NCBI RefSeq assembly: GCF_028680575.1
Contig: NZ_JAPCKI010000008.1
Span: 1-64,000 of the forward strand
Length of the DNA: 64,000 nt
Direction: 5' to 3'
Source: Acidovorax benzenivorans
Lineage (GTDB): Bacteria > Pseudomonadota > Gammaproteobacteria > Burkholderiales > Burkholderiaceae_C
In this document: positions 4,325 through 26,453 of the stretch, one piece after another
Layout: each line of letters starts with the position of its first letter
How positions within the stretch are numbered: the first letter of the stretch is position 1
Program-made: the position numbers and the translations under genes
Notes under the pieces: generated by a model
Told to the model about the DNA's origin: nothing
Seen by the model: the letters and a program-made list of their open reading frames with translations, nothing else
The model's database searches: none

Positions 4325-6247
4325 ATGGATGCCATCAGCAACTTCGCCGCGCGCTATGCCCGTAGCCGCGAAGAGGAAATGTCGATCGACGAGTACCTCG
4401 CCGAGTGCAAACGTGATCCCATGGCCTACGCCACGTCGGCCCAGCGCATGCTGGCCGCCATTGGCGAGCCCGAGATGGTGGACACGCGCAACGACCCGCG
4501 CCTGTCGCGGCTCTTTGCCAACAAGGTCATCAAGCGCTACCCCGCGTTCACCGAGTTCTATGGCATGGAGGAGTCCATCGAACAGGTGGTGAGCTTCTTC
4601 CGCCACGCCGCGCAGGGGCTGGAGGAGCGCAAACAGATCCTCTACCTGCTGGGCCCCGTGGGGGGCGGCAAGAGTTCGATCGCGGAGCGCCTCAAGGCCC
4701 TGATGCAGAAGGTGCCGTTTTATGCGCTCAAGGGCTCGCCGGTGAACGAGTCGCCGCTGGGCCTGTTCGATGCGCAGGAGGACGGCCCGGTGTTGGAAGA
4801 TCAGTTTGGCATTCCGCGCCGTTACCTGCAACGTGTGCTGTCGCCGTGGGCGGTGAAACGGCTGGAAGAGTATGGCGGTGACATCCGCCAGTTCCGCGTG
4901 GTCAAGCGCTACCCCAGCGTGCTCAAGCAGGTGGGCATTGCCAAGACCGAGCCGGGCGATGAGAACAACCAGGACATCTCCAGCCTGGTGGGCAAAGTGG
5001 ACATCCGCAAGCTCGAAACCTTTGCCCAGGACGACACCGATGCCTACAGCTACAGCGGCGGCCTGTGCCTGGCCAACCAGGGCTTGCTCGAATTCGTGGA
5101 AATGTTCAAGGCACCCATCAAGGTGCTGCACCCGCTGCTGACAGCCACGCAGGAGGGCAACTACAAGGGCACGGAGGGCTTTGGCGCCATCCCGTTCGAC
5201 GGCGTGGTGCTGGCCCACAGCAACGAGAGCGAGTGGAAGGCGTTTCGCAACAACAAGAACAACGAGGCCTTCCTGGACCGCATCTACATCGTCAAGGTGC
5301 CGTACTGCCTGCGCGTGAGCGAGGAGACCCGCATCTACGAGAAACTCATCCGCGAATCGTCTCTGGGCAACGCCGTGTGCGCACCCGGCACGCTCAAGAT
5401 GATGGCGCAGTTCGCCATCCTCACGCGGCTGAAGGAGCCCGAGAACTCCAGCATCTTCAGCAAGATGCAGGTGTATGACGGCGAGAGCCTGAAAGACACC
5501 GACCCGCGCGCCAAGAGCTACCAGGAGTACCGCGACTACGCGGGTGTGGACGAGGGCATGACGGGCGTCTCCACCCGTTTTGCGTTCAAGATTTTGTCCA
5601 AGGTGTTCAACTTCGACAGCGCCGAGGTGGCCGCCAACCCCGTGCACCTGATGTACGTGCTGGAGCAGCAGATCGAGCGCGAGCAGTTTCCTGCCGAGCT
5701 GGAGACCAAGTACACCAGCTACATCAAGGAATACCTCTCGCCGCGCTATGCCGAGTTCATCGGCAAGGAGATCCAGACCGCTTACCTGGAGAGCTACAGC
5801 GAGTACGGCCAGAACATCTTCGACCGCTATGTGACGTATGCGGACTACTGGATCCAGGACAACGAGTACCGCGACACCGACACCGGTGAGGTGTTCGACC
5901 GGGGTGCGCTCAACGCCGAGCTGGAGAAGATCGAGAAGCCCGCAGGCATTGCCAACCCCAAGGATTTCCGCAACGAGATCGTCAACTTCGTGCTGCGCGC
6001 GCGCGCCAACAACCAGGGCCAGAACCCCAGCTGGACCAGCTACGAAAAGCTGCGCCTGGTGATCGAGAAGAAGATGTTCTCCAACACCGAAGAATTGCTG
6101 CCGGTGATCAGCTTCAACGCCAAGGCCAGCGCCGAAGAGGCGCGCAAGCACGAGGACTTTGTCACCCGCATGGTGAACAAGGGCTACACCTCCAAGCAGG
6201 TGCGGCTGTTGTGTGAGTGGTACCTGCGGGTGCGCAAGAGCAGCTGA
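4325..6247 (+). CDS. prkA: PrkA family serine kinase / AAA protein
   Basis: A 640-residue protein that lines up with E. coli YeaG/PrkA over its whole length. Landmarks are RLSRLFANKVIKRYPAF, the P-loop GPVGGGKSS (from residue 110), AKTEPGDENNQDISSLVGKV, VLHPLLTATQEGNY and the very conserved end EWYLRVRKSS. The ATG at 4325 is chosen because it has a strong AGGAGG and gives MDAISNFAARYARSREEE, matching the family start. PrkA proteins have an AAA-type N-terminal half and a kinase-like C-terminal half; they were described as Ser/Thr kinases, and protease-type activity has also been proposed. In enterobacteria the gene is co-transcribed with yeaH and induced in stationary phase or nitrogen stress. 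Here yeaH and a spoVR-type gene follow directly. Confidence 0.97.
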   Translation: MDAISNFAARYARSREEEMSIDEYLAECKRDPMAYATSAQRMLAAIGEPEMVDTRNDPRLSRLFANKVIKRYPAFTEFYGMEESIEQVVSFFRHAAQGLEERKQILYLLGPVGGGKSSIAERLKALMQKVPFYALKGSPVNESPLGLFDAQEDGPVLEDQFGIPRRYLQRVLSPWAVKRLEEYGGDIRQFRVVKRYPSVLKQVGIAKTEPGDENNQDISSLVGKVDIRKLETFAQDDTDAYSYSGGLCLANQGLLEFVEMFKAPIKVLHPLLTATQEGNYKGTEGFGAIPFDGVVLAHSNESEWKAFRNNKNNEAFLDRIYIVKVPYCLRVSEETRIYEKLIRESSLGNAVCAPGTLKMMAQFAILTRLKEPENSSIFSKMQVYDGESLKDTDPRAKSYQEYRDYAGVDEGMTGVSTRFAFKILSKVFNFDSAEVAANPVHLMYVLEQQIEREQFPAELETKYTSYIKEYLSPRYAEFIGKEIQTAYLESYSEYGQNIFDRYVTYADYWIQDNEYRDTDTGEVFDRGALNAELEKIEKPAGIANPKDFRNEIVNFVLRARANNQGQNPSWTSYEKLRLVIEKKMFSNTEELLPVISFNAKASAEEARKHEDFVTRMVNKGYTSKQVRLLCEWYLRVRKSS

Positions 6248-6321
6248 TCGCTGTTGATCGCTCTGGAAGGTTTTGCCAGCGCGTCCCGCCGGGGCGCTGG
6301 CCTATGCAGGGGAGCAAGGGG

Positions 6322-7590
6322 ATGGCACTGCAAATCATCGACCGCAGGCTCGCAGGCAAGAACAAATCTGTGGGCAACCGCGAACGCTTTGTCCGCCGCT
6401 TCAAGGAGCAGATTGCGGAGAGTGTGCGCCGTGCGGTCTCGCAGCGTGGCATTCGCGACATGGAGCAGGGCGAGAGCATCACCATCCCACGCAAGGACAT
6501 CAGCGAGCCTGTGTTCCACCATGGCCAGGGCGGCATCCGCGACACCGTGCACCCCGGCAATGCAGAGCATGTGCGCGGCGACCGCATTGAGCGGCCCCAG
6601 GGCGGGGCGGGCGGGCGCGGCTCGCAGGCCAGTGACAGCGGCGAGGGCGAGGACGACTTCACCTTCACGCTGACCAAGGAAGAGTTCATGCAGCTCTTTT
6701 TTGAAGACCTGGCGCTGCCGCACCTGCTGCGCACCCACATTGGCGAGAACCCACAGTGGAAGTCGCGCCGCGCGGGCTACAGCCAGGACGGCATCCCCAA
6801 CAACCTGGCCGTGCTGCGCACCATGCGTGGGGCGCTGGGGCGGCGCATTGCGCTGGGCAAGTCGGCACACCGCGAGCTGTTGGCGCTGCAGGCCGAGCTG
6901 GACGCCCTGCTGGCGCAGGACGACGGCACCAGCGAGGCGGTGGCCGAGCTGCAGCACCGCATCGACGTGCTCAAGGAGCGCGTGGGCCGGATTCCGTACC
7001 TCGACCCCATCGACCTGCGTTTTCGGGCCCGCGTTCAGGTGCCCGTGCCCAACAGCCAGGCGGTGATGTTCTGCCTGATGGATGTTTCGGGCTCCATGGA
7101 CGAGGCGCGCAAGGACCTGGCCAAGCGCTTTTTCATCCTGCTGTACCTGTTTCTCACGCGGCACTACGAGAAGATCGACATCGTCTTCATCCGCCACCAC
7201 ACCCAGGCGGCCGAGGTGAGCGAGGAGCAGTTCTTCCACTCCACCGAAAGCGGTGGCACGGTGGTGAGCAGCGCGCTGGTGCTGCTCGACCAGATCATCC
7301 GTGCGCGCTACCCGCAAGGCGACTGGAACATCTACGTCGCCCAGGCCAGCGACGGCGACAACTTCACCAACGACAGCGGCAACTGCCGCGACCTGCTGGT
7401 AGACCGCATCCTGCCGCTGGTGCGCTACTTTGCCTATGTGCAGGTGGCCGAGGAGGAGCAGAACCTGTGGGACGAGTACAGCCAGTTGTTGCCGCTGTTC
7501 TCCCACTTTGCGATGCGCAAGGTCTCCGAGCCGGGCGACATCTATCCCGTGTTCCGCGACCTCTTCAAGAAAGAGGGGGTGCCCGCATGA
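6322..7590 (+). CDS. yeaH: YeaH/YhbH family (DUF444) von Willebrand A-like protein
   Basis: A 422-residue DUF444 protein. It starts MALQIIDRRLAGKNKSVGN, the typical family N terminus, so the ATG at 6322 (preceded by GGGGAGCAAGGGG) is preferred over upstream in-frame starts. The C-terminal half carries a von Willebrand A-like fold with the metal-site motif DVSGSMDE (D at residue 254). The acidic/Gly-rich stretch around residues 90-112 is a low-complexity linker. The molecular function is unknown; it is consistently linked to PrkA. It lies 74 bases after prkA, and its stop overlaps the next start (ATGA), so the three genes form one operon. Confidence 0.94.
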   Translation: MALQIIDRRLAGKNKSVGNRERFVRRFKEQIAESVRRAVSQRGIRDMEQGESITIPRKDISEPVFHHGQGGIRDTVHPGNAEHVRGDRIERPQGGAGGRGSQASDSGEGEDDFTFTLTKEEFMQLFFEDLALPHLLRTHIGENPQWKSRRAGYSQDGIPNNLAVLRTMRGALGRRIALGKSAHRELLALQAELDALLAQDDGTSEAVAELQHRIDVLKERVGRIPYLDPIDLRFRARVQVPVPNSQAVMFCLMDVSGSMDEARKDLAKRFFILLYLFLTRHYEKIDIVFIRHHTQAAEVSEEQFFHSTESGGTVVSSALVLLDQIIRARYPQGDWNIYVAQASDGDNFTNDSGNCRDLLVDRILPLVRYFAYVQVAEEEQNLWDEYSQLLPLFSHFAMRKVSEPGDIYPVFRDLFKKEGVPA

Positions 7591-9316: not shown

Positions 9317-9703
9317 TCAAAAAACGGGCGAAGAGGCCTTGGCCCGTGGCGCACGGGCTTGCAGCGGGCAGTCGGTGGCCACACGCTCGGCCAGCGTCTG
9401 GCGCAGGGTCTGCAGTGCTGCAATCCGGGCATCGATCTCCTGCAGCTTGGCGGCCAGCACCTGCGCCAGCGCGGGGCCGGGCTCGGCCGCATCCCAGATG
9501 GCGGGTAACCGGTCGCCAATCTCGGCCAGCGTAAAGCCCAGCTGCTGCGCGGTGCGGATGTACTGCACCAGCGTCACCACCTCGGGCGGGTAGTCGCGGT
9601 AGCCGTTGCTGAGCCGCCGTGCACGAATGAGGCCCTGCTGTTCGTAAAAACGCAGCGCCTCGCGGCTCAGGCCCGAGGCGGTGGCCAGTTCTCCGATCAG
9701 CAT
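9317..9703 (-). CDS. MerR family transcriptional regulator
   Basis: A 128-residue regulator with an N-terminal winged helix-turn-helix starting MLIGELATASGLSREALRFYEQQGLI, the canonical MerR signature, followed by a dimerising coiled coil (about residues 75-112). Only one Cys is present near the C terminus, so neither a SoxR-type iron-sulfur site nor a typical metal-binding loop is visible and the inducer is unknown. It is divergent from a small membrane-protein gene at 9807, with a dyad between them that probably serves both promoters. That arrangement suggests the regulator controls its neighbour and itself. Confidence 0.92.
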   Translation of the reverse strand: MLIGELATASGLSREALRFYEQQGLIRARRLSNGYRDYPPEVVTLVQYIRTAQQLGFTLAEIGDRLPAIWDAAEPGPALAQVLAAKLQEIDARIAALQTLRQTLAERVATDCPLQARAPRAKASSPVF

Positions 9704-9736
9704 TCCACGCTCCCTCTCAATACAAAGTACAAAGTG

Positions 9737-9769
9737 CTTGACCCTGAAGCGTACTTCAAGGTGGAAGCT
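9737..9769 (+). promoter_or_regulatory. Predicted MerR-type operator/promoter
   Basis: An inverted repeat ACCCTGAAG-CGTA-CTTCAAGGT (9741-9762, one mismatch) lies between merR and the divergent gene at 9807. A TTGACC hexamer (9738-9743) overlaps its left edge, as expected for promoters with a long spacer that MerR proteins remodel. The -10 element is not convincing (the bases 19 nt downstream are GAAGCT). Confidence 0.55.
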
Positions 9770-9806
9770 CAGGACCTCATTGATTCATTCACAGAGGTTT
9801 CTTGTT

Positions 9807-10277
9807 ATGCACATCCCCGCTTTCGCCTCCGACCGTTACCTGCGCATCGTGCGCACCAGCGGCTGGTACGACCTGCTCGTCACCTGGCCGTTTGCCCTGC
9901 CCTGGACCTTTGCCTGGCTTTACGCCCAGCTGAACCTGCTGGCCCAGACGCTGGGGCTGCCGGGCACGCTGCACCCGCTCGACACCACCCACATGCTGCT
10001 GGCCAACCTGCTGGGCTCGGTAGTGGTGGTGTGGTCGGTGGCGCGCATCGTGGCGCCTTCGCTGCTGCTGGGGCGGCTCGATGGCGTGGCGCGCTTCCTG
10101 TTTGCCGCCTGGCAGATCTACGCCGTGGCGCACGGGGCCAATGCCATCGTGCTGGGCTTCACCGCTTTTGAGCTGATGTTTGGCGTGCTGCAGTGGTGGC
10201 GTGTGGACGGTGCCAGCGCGGCAGCGTGCCCGCCCGGCCCCGCGCGGGTCAAGGTGCGGGCGCGGGCAGCAGCCTGA
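9807..10277 (+). CDS. Small integral membrane protein, MerR-neighbour
   Basis: A 156-residue protein with about four hydrophobic segments: LLVTWPFALPWTFAWLYAQL, LLANLLGSVVVVWSVARIV, FLFAAWQIYAVAHGANAIVL and the adjoining FTAFELMFGVLQWW. The C-terminal 25 residues are Ala/Arg/Pro-rich. I do not recognise a named family. The ATG is preceded by AGAGG at suitable distance. Being divergent from merR with a dyad in between, it is the likely regulatory target. Its 3' end overlaps the convergent MFS gene by 29 bases. Confidence 0.8.
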   Translation: MHIPAFASDRYLRIVRTSGWYDLLVTWPFALPWTFAWLYAQLNLLAQTLGLPGTLHPLDTTHMLLANLLGSVVVVWSVARIVAPSLLLGRLDGVARFLFAAWQIYAVAHGANAIVLGFTAFELMFGVLQWWRVDGASAAACPPGPARVKVRARAAA

Positions 10278-11481
10278 AGGCTGCCGCACCCACTCCCAGC
10301 ATGGCCGCTATGGTGAGCATCACCGCCACATAGGGGTCGGCACCTTGCGCTGTGGCGAGGGACGCGGCCACGCCCGTGACCCACTGCATCAGCGCCACGC
10401 CCAGAAACAGCGCCATGGTGAACACCGCCATGGCGCGCCCGGTCATGGCGGCCGGGTAGGCCGAGCGCACGTCCGAATACTGCAGCACCATGTAGCCCGA
10501 CAGCAGCCCCACGGCGATGGAGCCGCCTACGTCCAGCCATTCGGCGTGCAAAAAGCCCATGGCCGCAAACAAGGCCGCCAGCAGGGCCGTAAAACCCAGC
10601 AGCCAGCGCCTGCGCCGCGTGGGGCCGGGGTCCAGCCGACCAAAAAAGGCCGGGCTGAACAGCGACACCAGGGACGTCAGCATGGCCACGTTGCCGCTGG
10701 CCACCAGCGAATAGCCGTGCCGCTCGATCAACAACGGCCCCAGCCACAGCCCGCGCAGTGTGAGAAATGAGGCATAGGTCATCAGCGCCAGCAGCATGAT
10801 GCCGGCCGTGTGCGGCAGCAAGAACAAGGCGCCAAAGCCGCGCACCGCCTGCAGCACCGATTCACGCGGAGCGGCATCGTCGGTGGGCTGTGCGGGCTCG
10901 CGTACCTTCCAGAAGATCAGCAACCACGCCAGCGCCGCCAGGCCCGCCAGCACACCAAACCCCATGCGCCAGGACGACTGCTGCACCAGCCAGGCCAGCG
11001 GCGTGCCGGTGAACAACATACCCAGCCCGCCCACACCCATGGCCACACCCGACACCATGGCAAACCGCGACGCGGGAAAGTAGCGTGCAATGAACACCGT
11101 GCACACCAGAAAGGCAGGTGCGCAGCCCACACCAATCAGCACCTGCCCCAGCAGCACCGTGCCATAGCCCGGCGCCAGTGCCGACAGCACCGCGCCCGCA
11201 ATGGTGAGCGGGAACGCCACCAGCAGTGTGCGCCGCACGCCATACAGGTCGATGCCAATGCCCATGAACAGCTGCATGGTGCCAAAGGCAAACGCAAACG
11301 CCCCGGCAAACACCCCCAGTGCCTGCGCCGACAACCCGAACTCGGCACGCAGCCCCGTGGCCATGATGGCCGTGATGGTGCGAAACGCCTGGCTCAACGC
11401 AAAACCAGCCACCAGCGCCAGCAGCATGGACCAGGCAGTGCGGGGAGCGAGAAGCGGTGCAGAGGGCTGCGAGGTGGGCAC
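10249..11481 (-). CDS. MFS transporter
   Basis: A 410-residue major facilitator superfamily carrier with twelve predicted membrane helices. The loop after helix 2 reads GIGIDLYGVRRTLL, a version of the MFS signature, and a long charged cytoplasmic loop (residues 198-215, KVREPAQPTDDAAPRES) separates the two six-helix halves. The substrate cannot be assigned. It is monocistronic and convergent with the small membrane gene at 9807, sharing 29 bases of 3' end. No regulator lies beside its start. Confidence 0.9.
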   Translation of the reverse strand: MPTSQPSAPLLAPRTAWSMLLALVAGFALSQAFRTITAIMATGLRAEFGLSAQALGVFAGAFAFAFGTMQLFMGIGIDLYGVRRTLLVAFPLTIAGAVLSALAPGYGTVLLGQVLIGVGCAPAFLVCTVFIARYFPASRFAMVSGVAMGVGGLGMLFTGTPLAWLVQQSSWRMGFGVLAGLAALAWLLIFWKVREPAQPTDDAAPRESVLQAVRGFGALFLLPHTAGIMLLALMTYASFLTLRGLWLGPLLIERHGYSLVASGNVAMLTSLVSLFSPAFFGRLDPGPTRRRRWLLGFTALLAALFAAMGFLHAEWLDVGGSIAVGLLSGYMVLQYSDVRSAYPAAMTGRAMAVFTMALFLGVALMQWVTGVAASLATAQGADPYVAVMLTIAAMLGVGAAAFRLLPAPAP

Positions 11482-20077: not shown

Positions 20078-20526
20078 TGGGGCAGGCCGTCGCTTCGTTG
20101 CTTGTGCGCAAGGGTCTGCGCAGCGGTAGGCTGGTCATTGCACTGGTTCTGGCCGCAGGGTGTGCTGTGGCAGGCGCCCAACCGGTCGCTCCGGCAGGCG
20201 CGGCCTCGGTGGCCGTGGAGGCTGCAGCACCTGCGGCGGCTCCGGTCTACACCCGGGCGCGGCTGGTGTCTGTGGAGGTGGATGCGGGTGGCAACACCAC
20301 GCATGTGCGGCTGAAGCTGCTGCCTCGCGCCAAGCTGCCGTTCACCACACAGACCTTCCGGGTGGTCAACCCCGCCCTGATGCACGGCATTCCGCAGGGG
20401 GCCTGGGTGCAGTTCACTGCCCGGCACATCGACGGCGAAAACACGCTCACATCCATCCGCGCTACTGCGGAGTGCAAGCGGTTTGTGAAGCGGGCCGCGA
20501 AAACTCAAGCACTGACAGTGCGATAA
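20077..20526 (+). CDS. CusF-like periplasmic protein lacking copper ligands
   Basis: A 149-residue exported protein. The signal sequence is hydrophobic (LVIALVLAAGCAVAGAQP) and the Cys could serve as a lipobox Cys. A Pro/Ala-rich linker leads to about 80 residues with the pattern of the CusF/copper-efflux fold: RARLVSVEVDAGG, VRLKLLPRAKLPFTTQTFRV, IPQGAWVQFTA. The Trp and Met residues that bind copper in CusF (pattern WPxMTM) are not present: the equivalent segment is LPFTTQTF. The ATG at 20077 is in the TGATG overlap with the peptidase stop; an in-frame ATG at 20065 is the alternative. Confidence 0.7.
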   Translation: MGQAVASLLVRKGLRSGRLVIALVLAAGCAVAGAQPVAPAGAASVAVEAAAPAAAPVYTRARLVSVEVDAGGNTTHVRLKLLPRAKLPFTTQTFRVVNPALMHGIPQGAWVQFTARHIDGENTLTSIRATAECKRFVKRAAKTQALTVR

Positions 20527-20674
20527 ATCCTCTCGCCCATCGTTACAACGGGTGAAATGAAATTGCGATGAAGCGAGGAGCCGGGCTGGCTCCAAAGCGC
20601 CGTCAGCAGAACTCCTGACTCGCACTTTGCGGGGTCCTTCCCTAGAGTCCGACCGACTTTTAGGAGCCCTCGCA

Positions 20675-20908
20675 ATGACCACCGCCCCCCAATCCAAAGC
20701 CTCCCTGGTTCGTGAACACATGGCCGCTGGCCGTTGGGCTGACGCCGTCCGCCTGGCTGCATCGTTCCCCCGCCTGGACAAGCACCGTGACGCGATCCTT
20801 GACGCCCGCACTGCATACACGAACCCTCGCTGGCTGACTCAGCTTGGCATGGACCCCGAAGCGGCCAAAGAGGCCGGTCATGCGGCCCTGCGTGAGCGCT
20901 TTGCCTGA
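20675..20908 (+). CDS. Small phage-type protein
   Basis: A 77-residue hydrophilic protein beginning MTTAPQSKASLVREHMAAGR, with a good ribosome site (TAGGAG) upstream. Proteins of this pattern (a short SLVREHMAAGRWADAVRLAA helix and a C-terminal AALRERF) occur in prophages of related bacteria; function unknown. The upstream leader (20600-20665) is rich in short GC-rich words of the kind found before phage early genes. It is the leftmost recognisable gene of the relic and the only plus-strand gene in its left part. Confidence 0.65.
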   Translation: MTTAPQSKASLVREHMAAGRWADAVRLAASFPRLDKHRDAILDARTAYTNPRWLTQLGMDPEAAKEAGHAALRERFA

Positions 20909-20917
20909 TCGCCCCTC

Positions 20918-21199
20918 TCAAGCCCCCACATTCCAAAACAACGCGCCAGGCCCCGCCTCGGCGCGTATGTACTCCCAGGCCTTGGCGTCGTAGCCCGCCG
21001 CGCTTGGGAAAGGCGGCAGCACCTTTGCCGACCGGCCAAAGGGCAGCGGATGCAATATCCGCCTCGCTCGGCCCGTATCACACCCCTCTTTACCCACCAC
21101 CACCGCCACAAATCGGGCGCTCGGCCATGCGAGTTGCAGCGCCCGTGTGAGGACAACCAGGACGCCCGCATGCTGCTCAACCACGGGCGCCGGGAGCAT
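20918..21199 (-). pseudogene. Remnant of a phage PLP-dependent enzyme, internally deleted
   Basis: A 93-residue frame. Its last 35 residues (PPFPSAAGYDAKAWEYIRAE then GALFWNVGA) match the C terminus of PLP-dependent ACC-deaminase-like enzymes found in phages, from memory of the family. Its first residues (PVVEQHAGVLVV) resemble the N terminus of the same kind of enzyme, but the roughly 150-200 residues that should lie between, including the PLP lysine, are absent. The simplest reading is an internal deletion joining start to end. Its ATG overlaps the stop of the methyltransferase frame (TGATG). Confidence 0.45.
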
Positions 21200-21660
21200 C
21201 AGCGCACCGCTCCGCAGGCCGCCGTCGCGCGCTGGGGGTCGCCCTTCACGAAAACCAGCACATGCTGGTGCGTCTTGCCCAGCTTGCGCGAGATCTCAAA
21301 GCCTTTGCCCACCCGGATCGGCAGAGAGCCCGCCTGAGTGACCAGGATGGCTTCGTTGTAGAGCCTGGCGCCCGCATCGCGGAAGGCGGCGATGGTGTCG
21401 CCCACAAATCCACGGTACAGGCCCTGGGTGTCCCGGATGTCACCGACCACAAAGCAGGCGAAACGATCCTGGCGCAGCATGGCCACGGCCTCCTTGATGA
21501 TCTGGCGGTAGGTGCGCAGGAACCGGGGGTAGCGCATGGTGGAAAGGTCGGCTTTGTCGTCGCTGTATCGCTCCAGGTTGCCATAGGGCGGGCAGGAGAA
21601 AAGGAGGTCGGCCTGTACACCAGGCAGGGCCTGGCGCACCTCCAGCGCATCGCCCTGCAC
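21199..21660 (-). pseudogene. Phage DNA methyltransferase, N-terminally truncated
   Basis: 153 residues from a GTG start. It carries the catalytic motif CPPYGNLE, then YSDDKADLSTM, FACFVVGDIRD and the end KLGKTHQHVLVFVKGDP, typical of phage ParB-linked modification methylases. Family-like sequence continues upstream of the GTG (QPGLPAPRWVQGD) to about nt 21714, but an in-frame TGA at about 21715 blocks further extension. The N-terminal ParB-like part seen in intact relatives is gone. The break lies next to the truncated end of the neighbouring tail gene, so one deletion probably removed both. Activity is doubtful. Confidence 0.7.
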
Positions 21661-21714
21661 CCAGCGCGGTGCAGGCAGGCCGGGTTGGCCGCGACCGCAG
21701 GCAGTTCTGCGGGG

Positions 21715-22110
21715 TCAGGCAACACATGGGTAGGCGCGCACGAAGGCGCCCTCAAGGCCGGGGTTGTCGAACACCACCTGGGCACGCGCTGCGGGGGTGT
21801 AGATGGCCACGGAGCCGTCATCGTTCTTGAACCCATCCCAGTCCACCAGCACCAGGTCGAGCACCTCCTTGTCGGTGATCTGGTCGGTGGGCTGGGGCGG
21901 CGCGGGCTGGTTTTCCAGCAGCGCCCGGCTGAGTGCGCGCACATACTCGCGGCCCGCGTGGATGCGCTGGTCCAGCGCATTGCGCTCTTCTTCGTTCAGA
22001 CGCTTGAAGCGCGCCTTGAACTTGAAGACCAGCGGCTTGTCGGGCTGGTCCGGGACGATGAAGTGGCCGGGCGCCCAGTAGGCGGGGTTCTTGGTGATGA
22101 CAACTGCCAT
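21715..22110 (-). pseudogene. Phage tail-assembly-chaperone-like protein, C-terminally altered
   Basis: 131 residues starting MAVVITKNPAYWAPGHFIVP. The run LDLVLVDWDGFKNDDGSV and the following VVFDNPGLEGAFVRAY are typical of a phage protein encoded just after the tail tube, where tail assembly chaperones lie. Relatives continue after FVRAY with a short helical tail; here the frame reads PCVA and stops, which fits a deletion joint with the methyltransferase remnant at about 21715-21735. It follows the chimeric tail-tube frame by about 57 bases. Confidence 0.55.
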
Positions 22111-22167
22111 GGCGGAAAACTCCTTTGCAATGCGTGAAACGGGGGCGATACGTGGCTCAGGCGGCGA

Positions 22168-22983
22168 TCAGACGCGGATGGTCAGCTCGTCGTTTCCTGC
22201 GGCCGTGGGGATGAACTTCAGCGGCAGCGTGACCATCTGCAGGCCGTCCTGTTCTCCGAAGCTGGGCTTGCCGATCTGCGCCTGCGGCGCGGCCACGGTG
22301 AGCGTGTTGGTGGCGCCCAGGCCGTGCAACAGCTCGAATGGCAGCTTGGTGCCGATCAGTTGGTCCCAGTCGTGCGTAGTGGCCAGGGTGTTGCGGATCG
22401 TGATAGAGCCGCTGCTGGCACGGCCGGTGATCTCGGTGTTGTCAACCTCGGTCAAGTCCTGCTTGGTCACCGTGTTGCCCAGGTCGATGCTGAACGCATT
22501 ACAGGGCCAGAACTTGGCACCCAGCTTGACTCGGGTGTTCGCTGCGTTTACGCCCAGTGGCAGCTCAAAGACCGGCGTGGTGGCGGGCATGGCCCCCAAT
22601 ACTTCGACGGCCTGCCAGGCGCCCGTGAACTCGAAATTGAACCAGGGCAGCTGCTTCGCGTTGCCTTCGAGCTTCACGTTGCCAGCAGCGCCGGGCATCT
22701 TGTAGACGTTGCGACCGACCACGGCGTAGAGGGAGAGGCTCTTGAATCGCTCGATAACGTGCTGCGCGCTGGCTGCATCGATGCGCCAGGCGCCGGGCTT
22801 CAGCTCGCGGCCGTCGTTGGGTTTGAATGTGCCCGCCGGGGTGAGCTGCAGCATGACCGTGCCGCCCGTCGCCTGCGCGGTCTTGGCGGGCACGCCGAAC
22901 GTGCAAGCGGCTATGGCCAGGGCGGCGGCACCAGCGCTGCAGACAGCGATGCGGGTGCTACGGGAGGCGGTGCGTTGAGACAT
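22168..22983 (-). pseudogene. In-frame chimera: Mu I-type protease N terminus fused to tail tube protein
   Basis: 271 residues in one open frame. Residues 1-83 (AALAIAACTFG, MLQLTPAGTFKPNDGRELK, GAWRIDAASAQHVIERF) look like the N terminus of Mu-like I protease/scaffold proteins. From about residue 86, the sequence changes to the pattern of a phage tail tube protein: KMPGAAGNVKLEG, FNFEFTGAW, then ASSGSITIRNTLATTHDWDQ and the typical end GNDELTIRV. The junction is near nt 22715-22740. In an intact phage these genes are separated by the capsid and connector genes, so an in-frame deletion is inferred. The N terminus mimics a lipoprotein signal, but the phage reading is preferred. Confidence 0.6.
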
Positions 22984-23055
22984 GCCGCCATGGTCGGCGG
23001 CAGCGGGTTGGAAGTATTGGGAACCAGGACCCTATTTAGCTTCAGAAGGGTGGTC

Positions 23056-24066
23056 TCATTTGACCTCTTCAAGCCTCAAAGACAGAGCTTTCAGATGTCG
23101 CTCCAGGCGCTCCGTGTATTGAGGGTCGGGTATAGGCGTAACCAGTTGCATAAGCTCTTTTCCAGCCTGCGAAGTCACGACACCATAAAGCTTCACCGTC
23201 GTTTTTGCTTGCCCCTCGTAAACACATCGGTAGTGCTTGCCGCTATGGAGAAAACTGATGTCGTCTCCTTGCTTCTCGAATTCGACTTGTTGTGCCCCAT
23301 CCATATCGATCAACACGAGTCCGTACTCAACCAAAGCCAGTAGCGATCGGTAGTCGAGGCCGTATTTTCCAAGTCCATTTGTGCTGGGGCGCTCGCCTAC
23401 TGTCATCAGCAAGCCACCGAAAACCTTTTCTGCTTTTGTGAACTGTATTGCGAGAGAGCTATAGCGAGCAAACAACTCGGCTTCTTCATTGCCCATCTGG
23501 CCCAGAACCTTTATGGCTCGGCGGGAGAATGAACCAGGCCTCGCCACTTCCCCTGCAAGCAATTTGGCGAAGACGTTCCTCATTTCGTCGGAGCTCATAT
23601 TCTCAGCTTCAGCTTCAAACGTGTTCATCCAGTCGTCGCTAATCTCTGCTGATGCTGTGGAATCACCCGTCATCTCGGGAGGCGAACGCCTAGACAACTC
23701 GTGGACAGCTTTGTTGGCGATGGCGTCAAGATTTTTCTGTTTCCCAACGATTCGCTCCGCAAACTTGATACCGGCCGCATCCAGGTAGGTAGGTGGGACC
23801 TGGATCTGATCTGCTATGGCACTCCCCGATGCCTGGATTGCCCGAACCCGTGCATCAGAGGTTGCCTGAATTTCTGCCACTTTGCCCGCAAAGTACGCTT
23901 GGGGTACCTCCATGAAAGAGGTAGTCAACCGCTTAAGAACGTATCCAAGCGTTTTCTGAACAGGCGCTGGAAGCCCAGTCACATGCCCCAAAGCTGCGCT
24001 AGCTACCTCGCCTAGCCCAGATTCGTCCGACTCCTGTTCGTCCTGCGCTGCGGATTCGTCCACCAT
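23056..24066 (-). CDS. DUF2806 domain protein (prophage cargo)
   Basis: A 336-residue soluble protein. The central part (EISDDWMNTFEAEAENMSSD, then MRNVFAKLLAGEVARPGSFS) is the conserved core of DUF2806, a family of unknown function with some resemblance to abortive-infection alpha-type proteins. The first 20 residues are acidic and low-complexity. Codon use is clearly more AT-rich than in the flanking genes, suggesting separate acquisition. It interrupts the phage late order between the gpG fragment and the protease/tail chimera, and unlike them it looks complete. A role in phage defence is possible but only inferred. Confidence 0.75.
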   Translation of the reverse strand: MVDESAAQDEQESDESGLGEVASAALGHVTGLPAPVQKTLGYVLKRLTTSFMEVPQAYFAGKVAEIQATSDARVRAIQASGSAIADQIQVPPTYLDAAGIKFAERIVGKQKNLDAIANKAVHELSRRSPPEMTGDSTASAEISDDWMNTFEAEAENMSSDEMRNVFAKLLAGEVARPGSFSRRAIKVLGQMGNEEAELFARYSSLAIQFTKAEKVFGGLLMTVGERPSTNGLGKYGLDYRSLLALVEYGLVLIDMDGAQQVEFEKQGDDISFLHSGKHYRCVYEGQAKTTVKLYGVVTSQAGKELMQLVTPIPDPQYTERLERHLKALSLRLEEVK

Positions 24067-24111
24067 TTGTTCCTCCAGTATGTAGTTTGCGACCTCATTT
24101 TGCCCAAGAAA

Positions 24112-24498
24112 CTACACCCTCCTATCCCCCAACCAGGCCAGAACAATCTGCCTAATTTCACGGTCGTCTTCAGAACTGACCCCCAGAAACGGTCGAGCCG
24201 GGATGTTCACTCGGTACGCGGGTATGTTCACCTGCCGTTCGGTCGCCCGCTTGTGCTTCTTGCCCGCAAACAGCACCCGGCCGGCCACGCTGCGATAGCG
24301 CACCGTCGCCTGGCGCGCTGGCATCTCGATGGTGCCGCCGAGCTGGTGGATGGCGGCGTACTTGGTGTTGCTGCCCACCTCGACCTCTGCATCTCCCGTG
24401 ACCTGGTAGTGGATGCCGCTGCGCAAGTAGCCGCGCAGGGTGAGCTGGTGCAGGAGTCCGATCTGTACCTGAACAGGGGCCAGGGCTTTGACATCCAC
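24112..24498 (-). pseudogene. Phage virion morphogenesis protein (gpG-like), N-terminally truncated
   Basis: 128 residues from a GTG. The segment SGIHYQVTGDAEVEVGSNTK, then YAAIHQLGGTIEMPA and IPARPFLGVSSEDDREI, is characteristic of the Mu gpG / phage virion morphogenesis family. Family members carry about 50 more residues before LRSG; here the preceding residues (DVKALAPVQVQIGLLHQL) do not fit, so the 5' part was lost. The break near 24440-24498 coincides with the end of a plus-strand phage frame. Confidence 0.6.
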
Positions 24499-24588
24499 TG
24501 GTGGGCCTGGGAATGCCTCATGGGCGTGTTGAATCGGCCCATATCGGCCGACATGGCCGTTTTGACGCCCCAGGGGGCGGCACAGTGA
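24481..24588 (+). pseudogene. C-terminal scrap of the phage gene upstream of mor
   Basis: A frame ending GFDIHWWAWECLMGVLNRPI then SADMAVLTPQGAAQ runs into the Mor gene with overlapping GTGA (24585-24588). Overlap of stop and start is typical of a phage early operon, so this is probably the tail of the gene that preceded mor. Upstream of 24481 the same frame crosses the antisense gpG fragment and lacks protein character. Identity unknown. Confidence 0.3.
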
Positions 24589-24962
24589 GCGTTGAAGTCA
24601 CCCGCATGGCGCTCAAGCGCCATGAGCTGCTGGAAGAGCTGCAGGCGGTGATCGCCCGTCAGCTGGAGGAAATGGGCACGCCCCCCGATGCGGCCTCGGT
24701 CATCGGCTCGTCGGCCGTGGACTACCTGAGCACCTATTGGGCGGGCCAGGTGGTGACTTTCCCGAAGGACGCTCAGTACAAGCTGACGCTCAAGGAGTTG
24801 GAGATTTACGACCAGTTCGACGGCCGCAACAAGGATGATCTGGCGCGCCGGTATGGGATGACGCCGCGCGGGATGGGGAAGTTGCTCAAGCGCATCCGGG
24901 AGAAGATCAAGGCGCAGAACGCGGATGCGGAGGCGGCTGGGCAGCTCGAATTGATCAGCTAG
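24585..24962 (+). CDS. Mor/C family phage transcription activator
   Basis: 125 residues from a GTG, close to the size of Mu Mor (129). It has an N-terminal dimerisation-type helix (MALKRHELLEELQAVIARQL), the family block YLSTYWAGQVVTFPKDAQY, and a C-terminal helix-turn-helix (NKDDLARRYGMTPRGMGKLL, KRIREKIK). Mor activates the middle promoter of Mu-like phages by contacting RNA polymerase. It may still be expressed but has no phage middle operon left to drive. It appears full length and is followed 15 bases later by the unknown gene at 24978. Confidence 0.85.
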   Translation: MSVEVTRMALKRHELLEELQAVIARQLEEMGTPPDAASVIGSSAVDYLSTYWAGQVVTFPKDAQYKLTLKELEIYDQFDGRNKDDLARRYGMTPRGMGKLLKRIREKIKAQNADAEAAGQLELIS

Positions 24963-24977
24963 CCTGAGGACCAATCA

Positions 24978-26234
24978 ATGGCGTTTGCGCAGGGCTGGAG
25001 TACATTGGCAGTTGCCTATAAAAGTAACTCTCAATACCACTCGTCACAGATGTTCGAACACATAGTTCTTCGTCGCTCAGAAGCCGGGACGCCGGTCTCC
25101 GCAGGCCAAATAGCGCAAGCGCTGCTTTTCTACAAAAAAGTTCACGTCATTCTTGATGTCGGGAGTTTCAGGACGCTTATCGGTAGCGTTGGCCCCGAGG
25201 GTCTATTAGCGTTGCTGGCCCGACCCGATTTCAGCGCTGTCTATTCTGAGGAGACATTGGCCACCGTCACCAATGTTGTGGGGCCGATGAAGGTTCACAC
25301 CTTCGATGCAATGACAGTTACTGGCCACGAAACTGTTGGTATCCGCAAGAGTACAGCCGAAAGAATCGAGTTTCATCTCAACCGCCAGGGCATCACTGGC
25401 AGGCGCGCTAAAGAGTTCACTCGCCGTTTTCTCCAGTATGTACCGGTTCGCAAGCTGACCGGTGATCACTTCCGCAGCGGTGGATTGATTGAGGCAGCAA
25501 GACAAGACTTGAGAGACGCCGAGTATGTACACGCCGCAGTCCGCAGAATTCTCAGTCTCTTGCCTGAGGGGGGCGATCCGGGAACGGGGCTGAAATTCGA
25601 AGTACTTGAAACAGAGTTGGGCAACTACGTTTTCGAGAACATCGACTTCGGATCCATAAATGGACGCCGCGCGCAGCAGGTCCCGCCGTTGGAGCCCCTC
25701 ACAGTCGCACATATCCTCAATCAGCTGCAAGAAGCAAGGACAGACCTTGAGTTGGCAGCTCACTACGGGGGCGACTTCGTTACATCAACGACGACTTCAG
25801 GCGTTATCCAAGTGAGGCACGAAGCCCTACTTAGAAGAACAGGCATTAACCTGGCAGCGCAGCAAACCTTTCTCGAGGTCACTCTTCCGGACATGCCCAT
25901 GATCGCGGAACTCATCGATTCAGGGGAGAGGTCGTTTGCAGACTTCATGCGGCTTTACGAGCGCTCAGTGAAGTTTAAGCAGTGGCTAAGCGCAGCCACC
26001 CCTGATACGGGACTAGTTCGCGAGTACCTGTTGGCGGCTAGCTCTCAAGACTGGATTCGGACGTCAGAGGCGAAACTGATCCGCTACCTATTCACAGGTG
26101 CAGTCTCCCTCGTTGACCCAACCCTTGGGGTCGCTGCTGGACTAACAGATAAATTCTTCGTGGACAAAATCTTCGCGGGCTGGCGGCCCAATCACTTCGT
26201 CGATGGAAAACTGAAGCCGTTCCTGAGCCCCTAG
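24978..26234 (+). CDS. 418-residue protein of unknown function (prophage cargo)
   Basis: I do not recognise this protein. It is soluble for most of its length, with IAQALLFYKKVHVILDVGSF near the N terminus and one moderately hydrophobic stretch near the C terminus (LFTGAVSLVDPTLGVAAGLT) followed by DKFFVDKIFAGWRPNHF, an ending I have seen in other uncharacterised proteins. Codon use is much more AT-rich than the chromosome, similar to the DUF2806 gene. It follows mor by 15 bases, with TGAGGA as a possible ribosome site; an in-frame ATG at 25050 is an alternative start. It lies at the right edge of the relic, where Mu-like phages carry accessory genes. Confidence 0.75.
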   Translation: MAFAQGWSTLAVAYKSNSQYHSSQMFEHIVLRRSEAGTPVSAGQIAQALLFYKKVHVILDVGSFRTLIGSVGPEGLLALLARPDFSAVYSEETLATVTNVVGPMKVHTFDAMTVTGHETVGIRKSTAERIEFHLNRQGITGRRAKEFTRRFLQYVPVRKLTGDHFRSGGLIEAARQDLRDAEYVHAAVRRILSLLPEGGDPGTGLKFEVLETELGNYVFENIDFGSINGRRAQQVPPLEPLTVAHILNQLQEARTDLELAAHYGGDFVTSTTTSGVIQVRHEALLRRTGINLAAQQTFLEVTLPDMPMIAELIDSGERSFADFMRLYERSVKFKQWLSAATPDTGLVREYLLAASSQDWIRTSEAKLIRYLFTGAVSLVDPTLGVAAGLTDKFFVDKIFAGWRPNHFVDGKLKPFLSP

Positions 26235-26247
26235 CAGCCGTCCACCA

Positions 26248-26287
26248 GTTGCAATGCTATTGCAATGAACCGTTTCGTTTCGTTCCA
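26248..26287. other. Possible right-end motif of the Mu-like element
   Basis: Just after the last prophage gene the sequence reads GTTGCAATGCTATTGCAATG, then AACCGTTTCGTTTCGTTCC. It has a near-direct repeat (TTGCAATGC/TTGCAATGA) and a TTTCGTTTCG run; Mu transposase sites combine AATGAAA-like and CGAAA-like words. A related word, ATTGCGATGAA, lies at 20562-20572 near the left edge, in the same orientation rather than inverted. Suggestive only. Confidence 0.3.
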
Positions 26288-26453
26288 CTTTGGCCCAATA
26301 AATCCCAATTTTCGCGCCGCCAGGGTGGATGATTTCTCAACTTCCTTCAGGTTTGAGCGATGTGACTGACCACCTGGGCAGGGCAGCGGGGACTGCGGCT
26401 TGCGCTGCGTCAAGGAGAGAGTGAGACGGCAACCAGCACGATACAGATATTGG

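Follow-up and report, generated by a model that had tools for sequence, protein, structure and literature searches.

Both phage ends are kept and the transposition genes are lost in mini-Mu elements. Cryptic or "grounded" prophages are reduced by deletion, with gene loss inside a prophage that no longer leaves, as described in PMC6379469, and the words "in-frame" and "fusion" are absent from the main text of that paper. The locus described here lies in a window of 64,000 nucleotides (the whole stretch of DNA that was analysed), where a single open frame joins the start of a Mu-like I protease gene to the end of a tail tube gene inside a short phage remnant. We consider this fusion, with a probability of about 0.93, to be a product of prophage erosion without function, and its joint to be one among several left by the decay.

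The fused frame and its parent genes

A preliminary description, made from the sequence of the window, had claimed a single 271-residue frame at 22168–22983 that begins like a Mu I protease and continues like a tail tube protein, and both the coordinates and the nature of the two halves were borne out. The frame is on the minus strand, starts with ATG and has 271 codons with no internal stop. The relative used for comparison, L014, is a 20.6-kb part of the IMG/VR contig 3300024933_000034, the entire contig of 37.2 kb being denoted G433. The parts of the fusion are as follows.

22168–22983, minus strand: fused open reading frame, 271 aa, with I protease residues 1–81 followed by tail tube residues 123–312
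22741–22983, minus strand: protease N-terminal part, fusion residues 1–81, by comparison with the L014 protease
22168–22740, minus strand: tail tube C-terminal part, fusion residues 82–271 and the stop, by the PF18906 match and comparison with L014
22737–22746, minus strand: joint J4, an imperfect 10-bp repeat of the parental sites, with 4401 bp missing relative to L014
22984–23037, minus strand: region upstream of the start codon of the fusion, 54 bp, identical to L014

Profile searches with the two halves taken apart gave the protease and tube matches that had been predicted. Fusion residues 1–90 alone match Pfam PF10123 (Mu-like_Pro, E 5e-7, 30.0 bits with a cut-off of 25.2), the match spanning profile positions 2–42 of 330 only, and also PHROG 328, head maturation protease (E 2e-10). 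The C-terminal 185 residues alone match PF18906 (Phage_tube_2, E 4e-7, 30.2 bits with a cut-off of 27) over profile positions 103–255 of 266, and gave no match in a search of PHROG. A profile search with the whole fusion reports the protease match only, and the tube family is not reported.

L014 has both genes complete, the protease/scaffold gene at 5369–6571 (400 aa) and the tube gene at 9647–10585 (312 aa). Fusion residues 1–82 are 97.6% identical to the L014 protease, and residues 78–271 are 93.3% identical to the L014 tube, which is a separate gene. On the DNA level the window is 95% identical to L014 over 22737–23037 and 94% over 21729–22746, and these alignments overlap by the ten bases 22737–22746. 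Ser82 of the fusion corresponds to Ser123 of the tube, and residue 82 of the L014 protease is Thr. The claim of an in-frame fusion therefore stood, but its junction, placed earlier at about residue 86 and 22715–22740, is moved by the overlapping parental alignments to residue 82 and 22737–22746.

The two genes had been said to lie normally several kilobases apart, and in relatives the distance is 3.7–4.6 kb, which implies a deletion in the window. The joined sites are separated by 4401 bp in L014, a multiple of three, in agreement with the in-frame deletion that had been proposed. Missing relative to L014 are protease residues 82–400, the intervening genes and tube residues 1–122, and judging by position the genes between protease and tube in the lost block should be capsid and connector genes. 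The upstream identity shows that the native initiation region of the I gene is retained.

A short direct repeat had also been suggested at the joint; one is present, yet it is imperfect, the parental sites being identical at 8 of 10 bases with a longest perfect run of 3 bp, so that a perfect direct repeat was rejected. The bases of the window change parent at this perfect 3-bp core. The 8/10 match is equalled by 0.5% of random position pairs in both genes and by 1.1% of in-frame pairs, and the perfect 3-bp run, reached by 23 and 31% respectively, is unremarkable; these chance figures, like those for the other joints, are rough, since relatives of the parents were compared and the joint positions were chosen by eye. 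Because L014, 94–95% identical in DNA, is not the true parent, there is uncertainty about the precise sequence of this repeat. The repeat weakly favours a repeat-guided deletion, presumably by slippage or microhomology end-joining.

Predicted product and selection

All residues that are invariant among seven proteases from residue 88 on are missing from the fusion, whose protease part ends at 81, including the blocks VIDYEHQT (88–95), YFSPV (143–147) and MGALTN (162–167). Some of the invariant positions before 81 survive. The conserved blocks from residue 88 on should hold the catalytic region with the active site. The model of the full L014 tube has a mean pLDDT of 73.5 and is predicted to consist of two like-built halves, about 13–161 and 191–311, which may reflect a duplication. 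It matches solved siphophage tail tubes, the best match being the major tail protein of SH-Ab15497 (E 2.8e-10), with further matches to P74-26 (1.3e-9), T5 (3.1e-9) and DT57C. The absent first 122 of the 312 tube residues hold six predicted secondary-structure elements; by the numbering of the tube model, what remains in the fusion is three strands at the end of the first half, followed by the complete second half, and with most of the first predicted half gone the tube fold is incomplete.

The model of the fusion has a mean pLDDT of 52.8, with values of 26–37 over residues 1–90, and the most confidently predicted stretches are in the second tube half. The drop in pLDDT from the full tube to the fusion is suggestive only, as the underlying alignments were neither equally deep nor of the same composition, and the comparison is not a controlled one. 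Tail tubes are the top matches in a structure search with the fusion model, which is very weak. A protein of this composition would have no plausible protease or tube function.

Compared with L014, the protease part shows dN 0.011 and dS 0.237 (dN/dS about 0.05), the tube part dN 0.030 and dS 0.355 (about 0.09), and the gene next after the tube dN 0.003 and dS 0.022, with 99% identity. These uneven dS values point to a parent that was related to L014 in mosaic fashion. Between the tube gene (dS 0.36) and the gene after it (dS 0.02) there is perhaps a border of recent mosaic exchange. When the tube changes were polarised with L013, 17 synonymous and 7 nonsynonymous changes fell on the branch of the window and 13 and 4 on that of L014, with 10 and 1 unpolarised, so that the window branch gives no sign of relaxed selection in the tube part. 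Most of the change should therefore have taken place while the tube gene still worked, and the deletion would be recent on that scale. This substitution pattern fits a recent deletion and may be compatible with selection on the product too; a counterpoint to neutral decay is that the 271 codons are open, and a long-neutral pseudogene would show more replacements.

The rival that survives best, and that we nevertheless find improbable, is a domesticated gene whose product, mainly the second tube half with a short leader, is kept by the host or by the element, for example because it disturbs the tail assembly of related incoming phages. An open frame with the native start region kept, the low dN/dS in both parts and the position of the best-predicted stretches in the second tube half speak for such a role, but the low dN/dS may wholly predate the deletion, since both branches show few replacements, and the neighbouring phage genes are broken as well. 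The fusion is moreover confined to the window's own genome among 399 of the family and was found in none of the phage and IMG/VR searches described below, so that conservation across several lineages after the event is not seen. Against domestication there is also the count of sigma-70-like sites in the element, none found with 1.4 expected by chance, which says little about phage-type promoters.

The prophage remnant and its joints

The fusion is part of a remnant of 5864 bp, located at 20486–26349, in which five joints are recognized including J4. The features outside the fusion are the following.

20480–20485, plus strand: right copy of the target-site duplication, GGTTTG, 5 or 6 bp
20486–26349: whole remnant, 5864 bp, with borders TGAAG... 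and ...CTTCA, absent at the empty sites
20627–20908, plus strand: small phage ORF near the right end, 93 aa, PHROG 18237
21151–21154: joint J1, 4 bp shared, shorter by about 0.4 kb than G008 and G011
21199–21660, minus strand: C-terminal remnant of a phage DNA methyltransferase, PHROG 498 positions 459–608 of 633
21684–21691: joint J2, from DNA comparison
21684–21736, minus strand: 53-bp scrap between J2 and J3, matching L014 18603–18655 in a long gene of the tail region
21729–21736: joint J3, about 7.6 kb missing relative to L014 (calculated)
21715–22110, minus strand: gene next downstream of the tube, 127 of the 151 aa of its L014 relative, then four foreign residues and a stop
23056–24066, minus strand: DUF2806 gene, 336 aa, DUF2806 match E 4e-29
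24112–24498, minus strand: tail completion (gpG-like) gene, N terminus lost at J5 and replaced by 18 unrelated residues
24435–24445: joint J5, about 20 kb missing relative to G433 (calculated)
24501–24962, plus strand: Mor-family activator, from a family match and the G433 comparison
24978–26234, plus strand: ORF of 418 aa next to the left end, no family found
26350–26355, plus strand: left copy of the target-site duplication, GGTTTG, 5 or 6 bp

The host DNA of two genomes of the same genus, G018 and G004, is uninterrupted where the window has 20486–26349 and constitutes an empty site; the overlap of the flanks is 6 bases in the alignment with G018 and 4 in that with G004. With CA as the terminus of the element the target duplication would be 6 bp, but G is the next base in all three left ends, so that 5 bp is possible. 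Stretches resembling the right border are found in G021 and G008, and stretches resembling the left border in G008 and G017; these are probably phage ends as well.

An artefact of assembly is very improbable: the genome is a draft of 43 contigs, but the fusion and both ends of the element match once each in it, leaving no second prophage or other template that could confuse the assembly, and the target duplication together with the empty site fits a real insertion. We attach just as little weight to the idea of a natural mini-Mu-like unit of 5.9 kb, movable by the transposase of a related phage, in which the tube fragment made from the fused frame poisons the tube assembly of such phages and the deletion was kept because it protects the cell. 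No second copy of the element ends is present in the genome of the window (G000).

The order Mor, gpG-like, I and tube is of the Mu type and is shared with the related phage. No transposase family (A or B genes) was found among the ten proteins searched, and their absence fits the loss of about 20 kb at J5. The four measurable losses and the 5.86 kb that is left add up to about 38 kb, and G433 is 37.2 kb. In the contig of L014, too, Mor and the late genes are on opposite strands, and an inversion was therefore rejected as an explanation of the divergent Mor gene.

Perfect runs of 4, 4, 7 and 4 bases are found near J1, J2, J3 and J5 (expected by chance in roughly 6, 5, 0.1 and 6%), and the best ten-base scores there are 6, 8, 7 and 7 (9, 0.4, 2 and 2%). 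J1 could alternatively be explained by an insertion in G008 and G011 instead of a loss in the window. The methyltransferase remnant had no match in 11 other genomes or records searched, and in a separate search it was matched by G008 and G011. The long L014 gene that is matched by the 53-bp scrap should by its position be tail fibre-like. J3 terminates the frame neighbouring the tube after the four foreign residues; this gene is probably a tail assembly chaperone, a name taken from its position, with no supporting family match.

Two genes of the remnant deserve a separate mention. The DUF2806 gene at 23056–24066 (minus strand) has a weak similarity to Abi_alpha (E 0.014, below the cut-off) and no match in a PADLOC search. 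A relative with 33% identity is located between the same gpG-like and I genes in G021 and L015, and L014 has no gene in this place; possibly it is an exclusion gene. The 418-aa ORF at 24978–26234 (plus strand) has no family in four libraries. Among 200 family genomes it has relatives with 36% identity in G149 and G212 and weak relatives in G001 and G118, and IMG/VR gave none by peptide patterns.

The most probable course of events starts with a Mu-like transposable prophage of roughly 38 kb, which would have inserted between the present window positions 20485 and 26350 and would have been eroded in place by internal deletions, until 5.86 kb with five joints was left. Among these deletions one of about 4.4 kb, located at an imperfect repeat of about 10 bp, would have removed the remainder of the protease/scaffold gene, the intervening genes and the first 122 tube codons, and would have happened to keep the reading frame, which is about a 1-in-3 event. 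Translation of the resulting chimeric pseudogene could begin at the protease gene's own start. With five joints in a prophage that has lost nearly all its content, there is nothing special in one of them, the fusion, being in frame.

Gene order in relatives and comparison with known systems

399 genomes of the bacterial family were searched with the fusion, up to six candidates being scored per genome; 30 of them match the query, which is covered in full only in the genome of the window itself. The halves are separate on one contig in G004, G062, G166, G216 and G368 and on different contigs in G250, and in a comparison of 40 relatives they are on one contig and in one orientation in G004 and G021. 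In all six single-contig genomes the positions equivalent to the joint are about 4.1–4.4 kb apart (calculated) and in the same order. The parental order thus appears, from these sequences, to be otherwise kept in the family. In the related prophage of G004 (L009 2105 and L010 4280; G004:C1 3942104–3964279), a left arm of about 22 kb is inverted relative to the tail arm when compared with G433, and the breakpoint coincides with the I gene's start codon and is flanked by GCGGCATG on either side.

IMG/VR was searched by peptide patterns, the protease side being the best 80 of 321 relatives. Both genes are present in 37 of the 118 loci, 3710–4628 bp apart from start to start, where 11 of the 37 repeat a contig listed under another locus (26 distinct contigs), the protease start is extrapolated past the contig end in three (L084, L086 and L097), and the tube match is weak in L169 (22% identity) and short in L187. 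The tube N terminus is missing in two of 57 IMG/VR tube loci, namely the distant L169 and L115 at a contig edge. In another comparison, in which some places are held twice (L002/L010, L003/L011 and perhaps L013/L018) and L036 is below the threshold, all 32 tube matches begin at tube residue 1–17, and none of them is therefore cut like that of the window. L042 (G054:C1 941526), where the match ends at residue 175 with 120 codons of frame before it, is possibly another protease remnant.

Among 50,697 phage records 161 match the fusion and among 72,556 plasmid records five, none of which covers 80% of the query, and a degenerate DNA pattern of the joint gave no matches in IMG/VR. The two halves in one frame were thus not found elsewhere in the 399 family genomes, the phage and plasmid records or IMG/VR, and the full-length homologue with the same domain order in an intact phage, named in the preliminary description as evidence against a fusion, did not turn up in any of them.

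A single alignment runs across residue 82 in 13 of the 118 IMG/VR loci, but the identity falls from 47–56% before this residue to 25–32% with 9–15 gap columns after it, and in the one example inspected the alignment continues into the VIDYEHQT block that belongs to the protease itself. The 54 tube-side matches all start at residue 70 or later. We read the 13 as over-extended protease matches, and by analogy the many Pseudomonas phage records that align to fusion residues 27–127 are likely to be the same. In four tube relatives (L020, L023, L029 and L030) 78–296 open codons precede the tube match, but the protease query matches nothing in them. A genuine multidomain phage gene inherited whole, for which these alignments and open codons might be taken, is on this evidence and the coverage of the phage records so improbable that it can be dismissed.

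The locus is a clean example of how prophage decay yields chimeric open frames that gene finders could annotate as real proteins, and its joints can be read because a related phage and an empty site exist. Biologically it is ordinary, and proof that the product is made and kept would be needed to give it more weight. With the Mu-like I or head maturation proteases (PF10123, PHROG 328) the fusion shares the N terminus and the start region, and it is without everything from residue 82 of 400; with the phage tail tubes (PF18906) it shares 190 residues, L014 tube 123–312, and it is without the first 122. Like a mini-Mu the remnant keeps both phage ends and has apparently lost the transposition genes, but it is natural, has one copy in the genome and gives no sign of movement after the deletion. 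With the cryptic or "grounded" prophages of PMC6379469 it shares, as far as these are described in the main text, the loss of genes by deletion, and it differs from them in that one deletion fuses two virion genes in frame.
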